64,000 nucleotides of DNA from positions 1,203,501 through 1,267,500 of the forward strand of contig NZ_OY776488.1 in the NCBI RefSeq assembly GCF_963675635.1, written 5' to 3'. This DNA is from an uncultured Pseudodesulfovibrio sp. (GTDB lineage Bacteria > Desulfobacterota > Desulfovibrionia > Desulfovibrionales > Desulfovibrionaceae). The translations under genes were made by a program, and so were the position numbers. This document shows, piece by piece, positions 7,422 through 64,000 of this stretch; position 1 is the first letter of the stretch; the number at the start of each line of letters is the position of its first letter. The notes below the pieces were generated by a model. That model saw only the letters and a program-made list of their open reading frames with translations. It made no database searches and had not been told where the DNA came from.

Positions 7422-8012
7422 TTATTCTTTTTCCGGATAACAACCAACAAGCAAATCATCCAGCCCCCGTTTGGGCACATGATGCCTGCCGTCGTCTCCG
7501 CTCCAATATTGTATACTTCCGTCGGATGGAAGCGATTCCACCACGACATCCTGAGCCGGCACACCAAGCGCCAACACCAGAAGTATATCGAAATTTTCCG
7601 ACAGGTCGAGCATCCGAGACAATTTCTTTCTGTTGATCGTCCCTATGATGCACCCGCCAAGCCCTTTTTCCACGGCTCCAAGCATTATGGACTGACTGGC
7701 AATGCCGTGATCGCAACCAGGATCATCCGCCACATTCTTATCGAGCAGAATGATTATATACCCAGTTGGCCGTTGTCCTTCTGCCGGGCCTTTCCAGTCC
7801 TTGAGATAACCAGCCCATCCTAAAAGAGGAAAGAGAGTGTCACAGTATGCTTTTTCAGTTACAGCAACGTATTTCAACGGCTGCATGTTCATGCCTGACG
7901 GCATGAATCGAGTCAAATCGATCAACTCGATCAGTACATCAATGGTGACAGGACTGGATTCATCGAATATTCGCCTTGTCCGATTCCGTATCATCAATTC
8001 CCTGAACTGCAT
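7422..8012 (-). CDS. Nitroreductase-family flavoprotein
   Basis: An FMN-dependent nitroreductase-family enzyme of about 196 residues, probably NAD(P)H-linked. The N-terminal MIRNRTRRIFDESSPV matches the RxxxRxF phosphate-binding start of the fold, followed by FMPSGMNMQPLKYVAV, the conserved S-x-N-x-Q-P flavin loop, and AVEKGLGGCIIGTI in the middle. The terminal segments (LALGVPAQD) also fit. Natural substrates of this family are mostly unknown. The ATG at 8012 follows GAGGAG at short spacing; an in-frame ATG at 8027 would add five residues and has a weaker ribosome site. First gene of the rsfS-gpmI operon, divergent from the Phe-leader unit at 8163. Confidence 0.85.
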   Translation of the reverse strand: MQFRELMIRNRTRRIFDESSPVTIDVLIELIDLTRFMPSGMNMQPLKYVAVTEKAYCDTLFPLLGWAGYLKDWKGPAEGQRPTGYIIILLDKNVADDPGCDHGIASQSIMLGAVEKGLGGCIIGTINRKKLSRMLDLSENFDILLVLALGVPAQDVVVESLPSDGSIQYWSGDDGRHHVPKRGLDDLLVGCYPEKE

Positions 8013-8162
8013 ATGCTCCTCGTTCATTTCGCTTCATAGTCATGTAATGCACTTTGCCGCAGTCCGCAATGGCAGGCAGAGTCGGTATTTTACCCAGTTC
8101 CCCACACCTTACCAATGATAAACCCCTTGACGCAGTCGGGAACTTGGGGCAGTCTAACCTGT

Positions 8163-8216
8163 ATGAAAAATTTTCTCGTATCTCGCTCTTTTTTCTTCTT
8201 TATGTGCCCCCAGTAG
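8163..8216 (+). CDS. Phe-codon leader peptide (17 residues) of an attenuator
   Basis: A 17-codon open frame reads MKNFLVSRSFFFFMCPQ and stops with TAG at 8214-8216. Codons 10-13 (8190-8201) are TTT TTC TTC TTT, four Phe codons in a row, with a fifth Phe at codon 4. The same frame is open from an upstream ATG at 8115, which would give a 33-residue version. No ribosome site is clear for either start, which is the main weakness. The stop codon lies three bases before the left arm of a long antiterminator-like pairing and about 40 bases before a terminator hairpin. This is the layout of classical amino-acid attenuators such as the enterobacterial pheA and pheST leaders. It is not similar in sequence to those leaders beyond the Phe run. 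Confidence 0.7.
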   Translation: MKNFLVSRSFFFFMCPQ

Positions 8217-8218
8217 GT

Positions 8219-8286
8219 GGCTCGTGGAGTATTTGGAGCGATATAAACGCTGAACAGACCACGGGCCGCAAGGACCGTGGTTTTTT
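8219..8286 (+). promoter_or_regulatory. Transcription attenuator with mutually exclusive hairpins
   Basis: The terminator form pairs CCACGG (8259-8264) with CCGTGG (8275-8280) and is followed at once by six T (8281-8286). The competing form pairs GGCTCGTGG (8219-8227) with CCACGGGCC (8259-8267), nine pairs including one G-U, which uses up the left arm of the terminator. Inside it AGCG (8237-8240) can pair with CGCT (8248-8251). A further pairing of 8179-8188, inside the leader-peptide gene, with 8236-8245 (nine of ten positions) is a candidate pause hairpin. A ribosome finishing at the 8214-8216 stop would cover 8219-8227 and favour termination. A ribosome stalled on the Phe codons at 8190-8201 leaves 8219-8227 free and favours read-through into the ligase gene. 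Confidence 0.75.
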
Positions 8287-8331
8287 ATTGTGCCAACAAG
8301 GGCCGATCAAGGCCGCGCAAGGAGGTTCCCG

Positions 8332-9636
8332 GTGATTTACGATGTGAAAAATGAAACCCTGCCCAGGGAGGAGCTGGAAAGAATCCAGCTTCGAAGACTC
8401 CAGGCTCTTTGTGAACGAGTATATGCCAATGTCCCGTTCTATAAGAAAAAATTCGATGAAAAAGGCATTACGCCTCAAGATATCAAAACCCTGAAAGACC
8501 TCACCCGGTTGCCGTTCACCGTCAAGCAGGACCTACGCGACCAATATCCCTTCGGACTTTTCTCTGTCCCCAAAGACCAGATCGTTCGTATTCATTCTTC
8601 TTCCGGCACCACAGGCACCGCCACAGTGGTCGGCTACACCAAGCGTGACATCGAAAACTGGGGCGAACTCATGGCCAGATGTTTCATGGCCGCAGGAGCA
8701 TCCGCCAGAGACACCGTGCACAACGCATATGGCTATGGCCTCTTCACCGGCGGTCTGGGCGCACATTACGGCGCTGAAGCTCTGGGCGCGACTGTTGTTC
8801 CCATCTCTGGCGGAGCCACCCGCAGACAGGTAACCCTGCTTAAGGATTTCGCACCGGACATCATTTGCTGCACACCTTCCTACGCCTTGTTCCTGGCTGA
8901 AACAGGCGAGGAAATGGGCATTGACATCAAGGAACTTCCTCTGCGCATCGGCATTTTCGGGGCCGAACCATGGACTAACGAGATGCGTCTCGAAATAGAG
9001 AAAAAGCTCGGCATCAAGGCCATTGACATATACGGCCTGTCCGAAATCATGGGACCGGGGGTGGCTATCGAATGTATTGAAGCCCAGGATGGTTTGCACA
9101 TTCAGGAAGATCATTTCCTGGCTGAAACCATCAATCCTGAAACCGGCGAACCTGTTGCACCCGGCGAGGAAGGTGAATTAGTCTTCACCACGCTGACCAA
9201 AGAAGGCATTCCGCTCATCCGTTACCGCACACGCGACCTGACAACGTTGAATACCACGCCGTGCAAATGCGGTCGTACCACCGCCCGTATGAAGCGCGTA
9301 ACCGGTCGTTCCGACGACATGCTCATTATTCGCGGCGTCAACGTATTCCCATCTCAGATCGAGTCTATCCTCATTGAAACCGAAGGGTTGACCCCACACT
9401 ACCAACTTATCGTGGACCGTAAGGGCAACCTTGATACCTTAGAAGTTCAGGTGGAAGTCAATGAATCCATCTTCTCTGATGAGATTAAGAATTTACAACG
9501 CGTTGAATCAAAGGTAATGAAAAATATTAAAGAATTCCTCGGCGTCACAGCCAAGGTCAAATTGGTGAGTCCCAAGGAGATTGAACGCTCCATGGGCAAG
9601 GCCAAGCGCATCATCGACAAGAGAAAAGAGGGCTAA
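8332..9636 (+). CDS. Arylacetate (phenylacetate)-CoA ligase
   Basis: A 434-residue AMP-forming ligase of the PaaK family, which activates phenylacetate or related aryl acids with ATP and CoA. The adenylate P-loop [16 protein letters not shown] is near residue 86, followed by the GAEPW turn, [12 protein letters not shown] motif (adenylate-forming motif A5) and RYRTRDLT; the C-terminal AMP-binding_C domain holds [18 protein letters not shown]. Length is typical. The start is a GTG at 8332, eight bases after GGAGG; the frame is open from 8290 but nothing supports an earlier start. A tandem-ACT gene follows by 26 bases. The Phe-codon attenuator upstream predicts induction on phenylalanine shortage, pointing to aryl-acid use for amino-acid synthesis or salvage rather than degradation. 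That direction is inference. Confidence 0.9.
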
Positions 9637-9662: not shown

Positions 9663-10094
9663 ATGAAAGTAGATCAACTCTCCATATTTCTGGAAAACCG
9701 TGCCGGACGTCTCGCCGAGGTCACCCGCATCCTCTCCGAGGCCGGTGTGAACATCCGTGCTCTGTCACTGGCAGACACTTCGGATTTCGGCATCCTGCGT
9801 CTGATTGTTTCCGATTTTGCTAAAGCCAAGGACACGCTGAAAGAGGCTGGCTTCACAGTCGGTCGCACATCAGTTGTCGCCGTAGAAGTATCCGACGATC
9901 CCGGCGGGTTGCACAGAATCCTCAGCATGCTCCAGGATGCGGGAATCAATGTTGAGTATATGTACGCTTTTGTCCAACAGAGCGGCGACTCGGCTGTTCT
10001 CATATTCCGATTCGACCGGACCGATCAGGGTATTGAATTGTTGCAAAAAAACAACATCACCATTATCCCCGGCAACAAACTGTACGCCATGTAA
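9663..10094 (+). CDS. Tandem ACT-domain protein
   Basis: A 143-residue protein made of two ACT domains: residues 3-68 begin [20 protein letters not shown] and residues 72-140 contain [24 protein letters not shown] domains are small-molecule, usually amino-acid, binding modules; freestanding double-ACT proteins have no catalytic part. It has AAGGAG before ATG 9663 and lies in the same transcript as the arylacetate-CoA ligase. The neighbourhood and the Phe-rich leader make an aromatic amino acid the natural ligand guess. It is not the IlvN/IlvH regulatory subunit as far as I can see, because no acetolactate synthase gene is adjacent. Confidence 0.85.
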
Positions 10095-62061: not shown

Positions 62062-62071
62062 TTAAAAGATC

Positions 62072-62185
62072 CTTGGCACCGACCTACTTTCCCACACGCT
62101 ACCATGCAGTATCATCGGCGATGGAGGGCTTAACTACCGGGTTCGGAATGGGACCGGGTGTACCCCCTCCTCCTTGGGCACCAAG
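62072..62185 (-). rRNA. rrf: 5S ribosomal RNA
   Basis: About 114 bases. The terminal helix pairs CTTGGTGCC (5' end, 62185) with GGTGCCAAG (3' end, 62072). Internal marks are CCATTCCGAACCCGGTAGTTAAG and GCCGATGATACTGC on the minus strand, as in bacterial 5S. The ends are estimated from the helix. Confidence 0.93.
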
Positions 62186-62253
62186 AAAAAGAGTTGAGTA
62201 TTATTTACTCAAATATATAAGTAAATAGGGGAAGAGAGAATTCCATTAAGTTG

Positions 62254-64000
<1,747 letters not shown>

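Follow-up and report, generated by a model that had tools for sequence, protein, structure and literature searches.

The window, by which the whole 64 kb stretch of DNA analysed is meant, contains a gene for a phenylacetate/arylacetate-CoA ligase preceded by a short frame with four consecutive phenylalanine (Phe) codons and by a hairpin that ends in a T run. The question raised by this locus was whether the frame and the hairpin form a switch in which a translating ribosome senses charged tRNA-Phe and sets transcription of the ligase, as an earlier note on this DNA had proposed, or whether a T-rich stretch and a terminator stand side by side for other reasons.

Anatomy of the locus

The following features were assigned in the window.

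8128-8156, plus strand: predicted sigma-70-type promoter, with -35 TTGACG at 8128-8133, a 17-base spacer and -10 CAGTCT at 8151-8156
8163-8216, plus strand: leader peptide frame MKNFLVSRSFFFFMCPQ, with TAG stop at 8214-8216, probably translated from a leaderless mRNA
8183-8241, plus strand: leader (protector) hairpin, assigned by folding and by leader:spacer pairing against shuffled spacer, with arms 8183-8189/8235-8241, inner arms 8198-8204/8223-8229, and 8206-8211/8216-8221 with a mismatch
8190-8201, plus strand: control codons, four Phe (codons 10-13, TTT TTC TTC TTT), assigned from in-frame Phe enrichment
8217-8269, plus strand: antiterminator, with left arm 8217-8227 directly 3' of the stop codon and right arm 8259-8269
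8256-8286, plus strand: intrinsic terminator, with arms 8256-8264 and 8275-8283 and T run 8281-8286
8320-8325, plus strand: Shine-Dalgarno site of the ligase, AGGAGG
8332-9636, plus strand: phenylacetate/arylacetate-CoA ligase (PaaK family), GTG start, assigned by profiles and a PDB match
9663-10094, plus strand: ACT-domain-pair protein (PF19571 ACT_8, 103.8 bits), encoded second in the predicted operon

The positions given in the earlier note for the frame and for its Phe codons were all verified in the sequence, and the terminator stem it described, CCACGG (8259-8264) with CCGTGG (8275-8280) followed by six T (8281-8286), is present as the inner stem of the terminator. Its competing nine-pair stem (8219-8227 with 8259-8267) was also correct and is part of a longer helix of eleven pairs (8217-8227 with 8259-8269). 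Antiterminator and intrinsic terminator are mutually exclusive, as expected of an attenuator.

Chance and other origins of the site

A scan of both strands of the window asked for TTGAC 35-37 bases before an ATG, for a frame 11-35 residues long in which FF occurs and Phe is present three times or more, and for a terminator no further than about 110 bases away. Only this site passed, and none passed in 150 random windows (first-order Markov, with the dinucleotide frequencies of the window), on which ground a chance origin was rejected. By contrast, the 5 in-frame Phe codons of the window leader alone were matched by 6% of dinucleotide-preserving shuffles, a weak result because the leader is T-rich. 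The earlier note had held that the Phe run was unlikely by chance; this stands for the run within the whole arrangement and does not stand for the Phe count alone. The strength of the case for a Phe leader comes from the relatives and not from the window leader alone.

Two further candidates were rejected. The neighbouring gene (7422-8027) lies on the opposite strand, and the terminator is therefore not its own. A T-box or other Rfam riboswitch was discarded after an Rfam search of the window, in which only two rRNA genes and one tRNA reached the gathering score. The 5S and partial 23S rRNA genes lie on the minus strand at the end of the window (62071-64000).

Conservation in the genus and the order

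The ligase (E<=1e-180) was found in 35 of 36 Pseudodesulfovibrio genomes, the 36th (G166) being 81% complete, and in 35/35 of these the sequence upstream of it holds a promoter, an intrinsic terminator and, between them, a short leader frame. Members of one genus are akin, and the counts overstate independent events. The common layout is TTGAC, 17 bases, a CANNNT-type box (replaced in some more distant members by GCATGA or GCATGT), about 7 bases, ATG, a leader usually of 15-17 residues and a stop. An arm similar to GCTCGTGG follows and, after a spacer, a hairpin of the CCACGG...CCGTGG type with a T run. Examples of genus leaders are MQKYLSSHAFFFTGS, MIKLFFFRFFFFMGLP and MLKQFFTVFFFFMSLT. Loops of up to 17 bases were allowed in the terminator search, and the loops of 4/35 genus terminators exceed 12 bases. 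In 31/35 genus genomes an antiterminator arm with 6 or more pairs starts -2 to +5 bases from the stop. In L126 the arm falls within a longer frame (-12). L090-L092 (3/35; genomes G080, G088 and G086) keep promoter and terminator but have no comparable left arm, and only two or three scattered codons remain of their Phe run.

Beyond the genus, the sequence upstream of the ligase was viewed first in 53 of 137 other genomes; 8 were taken as elements and 45 were not taken as carrying one. These elements include MLNHDLFSFFFFFFFRTEI, MQESTSPLCFTGFFFGFFFRRPIQPVA and one in which F, Y and W are mixed, and 5/8 show a variant geometry, with the antiterminator arm reaching back into the leader frame (-8 to -18). 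With the genus leaders they make up the 43 elements analysed below.

A covariance model built from 42 elements was run against 297 genomes of the order, of which 147 gave a match with E<=0.05 anywhere in the genome. An aromatic-rich leader was seen in 13/13 ligase-side stretches viewed later at model matches, two further families of the order included. The ligase-side stretch of G054, the 14th viewed (L223), showed no leader and G054 gave no model match. At G152:C1:2849033-2849935 the ligase match ends at residue 301 of 434, with leader and terminator present; this may be either a broken gene or an assembly error.

Phenylalanine codons and paired helices

The 35 genus leaders hold 150 Phe codons in frame, compared with 59 and 70 when read in the other frames. 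For all 43 elements the figures are 200 against 83 and 98, the 8 elements from other genera having been chosen for looking Phe-rich; dinucleotide-preserving shuffles of all 43 (200 rounds) gave a mean total of 116 and a maximum of 129 against the observed 200. At least two Phe codons occur in 33/35 genus leaders and at least three in 29/35, while L085 and L127 have one each. Across the 43 elements Phe peaks 5-8 and 11 codons before the stop. Codon 10 is Phe in 22 of the 24 sixteen-residue leaders, in which its first base is invariant and its third differs in 49% of pairs. The short frame is thus rich in the amino acid of the pathway, as in attenuators generally, with Phe taken as the pathway product through the anabolic role proposed below for the ligase.

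Pairing was assessed in an alignment of 42 rows (A2; the 43 elements minus L112, which is identical to L111). Paired cells amounted to 92.5% in the antiterminator helix and 98.2% in the terminator helix, and to 21-59% in a control in which the partner arm was slid. Changes on both sides were found in 3 pairs and 11 cells of the antiterminator and in 2 pairs and 18 cells of the terminator, compared with 2.5 and 5.2 double-change cells, respectively, in shuffles. For both helices the paired percentage, the double-change cells and the covariation score lay above all 500 shuffles. The other two of the five covariation measures were unexceptional: 39 and 208 of 500 shuffles gave at least as many double-change pairs, and 73 and 500 of 500 at least as many further pair types; invariant pairs are uninformative either way for covariation. 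Pairing between leader and spacer, which forms the protector hairpin, was better than with a shuffled spacer at p<0.05 in 15/42 and at p<0.2 in 28/42 elements (mean z -1.17; L090 was left out, its spacer being too short). The comparison that the earlier note had called for, of a Phe-rich frame, both stems and compensatory changes among orthologues, thus came out in favour of an attenuator.

The same data bear on a constitutive promoter-proximal terminator behind a T-rich stretch, with the frame untranslated and nothing sensed. Such an arrangement would account for the T-richness and for the shuffle result of the window leader. It would leave unaccounted for the frame-specific enrichment of Phe, the third-base variation at a kept Phe codon, the compensatory changes in the antiterminator and the disappearance of the Phe run together with the antiterminator in L090-L092, and we regard it as extremely unlikely compared with a translated, Phe-sensing leader.

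Modelled ribosome positions

The effect of ribosome position was modelled with the ribosome edge set 12 bases past the A site. In the unfinished-transcript model the RNA extended through the terminator loop, without the 3' arm, and the readout was the share of the terminator 5' arm captured from upstream. The mean captured share was 0.74 when the last two Phe codons occupied the A site, 0.31 with the ribosome at the stop and 0.45 with no ribosome, in which state the antiterminator was only partly prevented (L090 and L092, with no value at the stop, were left out of the means here and in the equilibrium model below). The Phe position exceeded the stop position by more than 0.3 in 32/41 leaders and the no-ribosome state by 0.3 in only 20/41. 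On this model a ribosome on the control codons frees the antiterminator arm and one at the stop covers it, which bears out the attenuation geometry proposed in the earlier note.

In finished RNA at equilibrium the terminator won nearly wherever the ribosome stood, with a difference above 0.3 in only 8/41 leaders; for the window leader even this model dips on the Phe codons. Since the equilibrium fold fails to separate stall from completion, the switch would have to be kinetic, and the modelled geometry suits one that acts during transcription better than one at equilibrium. Classical attenuators are likewise co-transcriptional.

The preference of the equilibrium fold for the terminator could also be read as a sign that the leader is translated and works in another mode, either by a nascent-peptide stall that senses free Phe or an aromatic metabolite or by mere translational coupling, the terminator adding a second layer. 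Some residues other than Phe are kept as well (R at codon 8 in 17/24 leaders, and S, N or G at codon 14 in 21/24), yet the peptide is highly variable outside the Phe positions, the Phe runs of other genera differ greatly in length and order, and the residue in the sister leaders described below follows the pathway (FWYWY at the aro-trp operon, WWW at trpB). Another mode of this kind was judged very unlikely, and sensing of charged tRNA-Phe was retained as the preferred reading.

Predicted promoter and start of the leader transcript

The promoter was identified by comparison of the upstream regions of relatives. It was not among the sites listed by a consensus promoter scan of the window, because its -10 box, CAGTCT, is a poor match. 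TTGA[CG] stands 35-37 bases before the leader ATG in 62/65 leaders (the 43 elements, 19 fetched later and 3 more from the genome of the window). The first ATG 26-42 bases after TTGA[CG] was taken as the leader ATG, except in L118, L130 and L089, in which a second ATG was better placed; the search fixed the range of this distance and not its peak. From the spacing we infer that transcription starts at or next to the AUG, in the window at a predicted position at or adjoining 8163.

An SD-like 4-mer precedes the leader ATG in 4/65 leaders, against 43/43 ligase starts. The earlier note had listed the want of a clear ribosome site for the leader as its weak point. The site is indeed absent, but this probably ceases to be a weakness with the promoter placing the predicted start on the AUG, and the missing site is probably explained by a leaderless mRNA. 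In the second batch of sister leaders TTGA[CG] was found at -38 to -35 in 15/19. The other four (L245, L251, L259 and L260) are aromatic leaders before ADTH synthase, without TTGAC at the usual place and with an SD-like 4-mer. A wholly leaderless regulon was rejected on the evidence of these four; leaderlessness is therefore not an order-wide rule, and in some genera the leaders seem to be SD-led.

The ligase and its proposed metabolic role

The ligase matched TIGR02155 over its full length with 632.4 bits, below the cut-off of 646.3 bits, and this is still the closest NCBIfam family. PDB 2y27 was matched at E 2.6e-156, and the domains PF14535 and PF00501 were found. With the TIGR02155 score just below its cut-off and the strong match to 2y27, arylacetate-CoA ligase is used here as a family-level name. 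The gene family is usually assigned to aromatic catabolism.

The genome of the window also encodes an alpha subunit of indolepyruvate ferredoxin oxidoreductase (IOR) above cut-off (744.9 vs 650.9 bits). In the 530 bases read upstream of its gene, iorA, which closely follows another frame, there is no such leader. In other anaerobes a route is known in which arylacetyl-CoA feeds IOR in the reductive direction. By the same route the ligase would activate arylacetates and IOR would carboxylate the products to arylpyruvates, the precursors of Phe.

Sister leaders

Three further leaders were examined in the genome of the window. At L219 (G000:C1:685000-692000) an ADTH synthase gene stands behind the Phe/Tyr leader MHNITTRFFFFFSFYFRNACGLGVH (model E 1.3e-4); this second ADTH synthase is possibly a Phe-regulated isozyme. 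At L220 (G000:C1:1775500-1786000) an aromatic operon follows the F/W/Y leader MNSTTASNSSFSNFTFWYWYCHARGLGRGVL and a terminator-like hairpin (model E 0.057). It comprises ADTH synthase, dehydroquinate synthase II, chorismate mutase/prephenate dehydratase, aroA, trpE and trpC, with tyrA, trpG, trpD and trpF, named by eye, lying between. At L218 (G000:C1:1016000-1021000) a symporter accessory protein and a sodium:solute symporter stand behind the Phe-run leader MNTYQNRFSFFFFFCFRFFRSACGLGVCM (model E 0.42); the cargo of the symporter may be Phe, another aromatic amino acid or a precursor. In view of E-values of 0.057 and 0.42, the leaders of L220 and L218 were recognised by reading of the sequence and not by score.

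Twenty further model matches away from the ligase were picked across many genera. Of these, 16 precede ADTH synthase (12 called by profile and 4, L244, L247, L256 and L258, by eye), 3 a symporter and 1 trpB. The last, L248 (G223:C10:134400-135300), is a leader ending SYSWWWLW before the tryptophan synthase beta gene and is probably a Trp attenuator of like build. In 19/20 a leader frame with many aromatic codons was recognised, L256 having no clear leader; the leaders were chosen from frames containing three or more aromatic or His residues, and the richness is partly a matter of selection. Among 6 earlier matches away from the ligase, 5 precede ADTH synthase and 1 a symporter accessory protein (by eye).

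The genes behind the sister leaders serve aromatic amino acid synthesis or, in the case of the symporter, perhaps uptake. As the sister leaders stand before genes of aromatic supply, the ligase is predicted to help make Phe from arylacetates, and a role in aromatic supply is the simplest reading of the ligase.

Comparison with known attenuators

The best Rfam match of the site is Phe_leader (RF01859), which we take to represent enterobacterial Phe attenuators such as that of pheA. It runs end to end (8162-8289) with 17.1 bits against a gathering score of 55; this score was reached by none of 17 loci, that of the window included, and the best of 20 other loci scored 33.6. The two systems share a Phe-rich leader peptide, a long leader hairpin, a terminator and an identical order of parts. 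They differ in the target gene and in the window leader being without a Shine-Dalgarno site.

Desulfovibrio vulgaris belongs to the same bacterial order. An attenuator was predicted in 2005 before its aroA'-aroB'-aroQ-pheA-aroF-tyrA-trp supraoperon (Merino database, given in Table 7 of PMC1173090). It is a list entry, which as given there mentions neither a leader peptide nor the ligase (PMC1173090). The counterpart operon in the genome of the window is the one with the F/W/Y leader. Among the literature matches listed for the order, this database prediction was the only attenuator, and none described a leader peptide. The earlier note knew of no described Phe attenuator before a phenylacetate-CoA ligase; likewise, neither a ligase-linked Phe attenuator nor this regulon was found among the literature matches listed, which is not proof of absence.

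Leaderless attenuation has been described for trpL of Sinorhizobium meliloti, where the transcript is reported to begin at the AUG of the leader peptide and to attenuate an amino acid gene (PMC7298713). That leader is alphaproteobacterial and tuned to Trp rather than Phe, and its AUG start is reported whereas ours is predicted. In mycobacteria, leaderless short ORFs with contiguous Cys codons are described as Cys-responsive, with an effect on translation of downstream genes (Canestrari et al. 2020, as cited in PMC9031893), and an account of the mycobacterial cys operons gives no conserved terminator hairpin upstream (PMC1262725). A short frame with a run of codons for one amino acid is shared with the window leader, which is probably leaderless too and is predicted to respond to its own amino acid; the amino acid and the translational effect differ.

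The S. meliloti case also raises the alternative that the terminated leader RNA or the peptide acts mainly in trans, as rnTrpL and peTrpL do there, the more so as that leader transcript too is reported to begin with AUG (PMC7298713). The analysis addressed control in cis, whose geometry accounts for the conserved parts of our elements, and nothing in it hinted at a target in trans; action in trans could coexist with it. A mainly trans-acting leader was given the lowest standing of all the readings weighed, with next to no probability, and control in cis is kept. While the mechanism is classical, the target, the probably leaderless Phe leader and the regulon look new.

Proposed mechanism and its meaning

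The site is very probably a transcription attenuator of the ribosome-mediated type, with charged tRNA-Phe as its signal and the ligase-ACT operon as its target. RNA polymerase would start at or beside the leader AUG, and ribosomes would load on this 5' AUG without a Shine-Dalgarno site. With ample Phe-tRNA the ribosome would reach the stop and cover the left antiterminator arm just downstream; the terminator would then form and transcription would end near 8286. With Phe-tRNA scarce it would stall on codons 10-13, open the leader hairpin and leave 8217-8227 free to capture 8259-8269, and RNA polymerase would continue into the ligase. If the leader were not translated, the leader hairpin would partly hide the left arm and termination would be favoured. 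The probable leaderless start, this hairpin and the sister leaders go beyond what the earlier note had described.

On a wider scale, we consider it reasonably probable that the locus is part of an order-wide aromatic regulon of the Desulfovibrionales, consisting of largely leaderless attenuators tuned by their codons to Phe, Phe/Tyr, Phe/Trp/Tyr or Trp, and that the ligase is included because Phe is made by activating and reductively carboxylating arylacetates. If true, this would give an anabolic role to a gene family usually placed in aromatic catabolism. Classical attenuation, with seemingly leaderless Phe leaders, would be extended to an order of sulfate reducers, and the sister leaders hint at the cargo of the symporter and at the reason for two ADTH synthases in the genome of the window.
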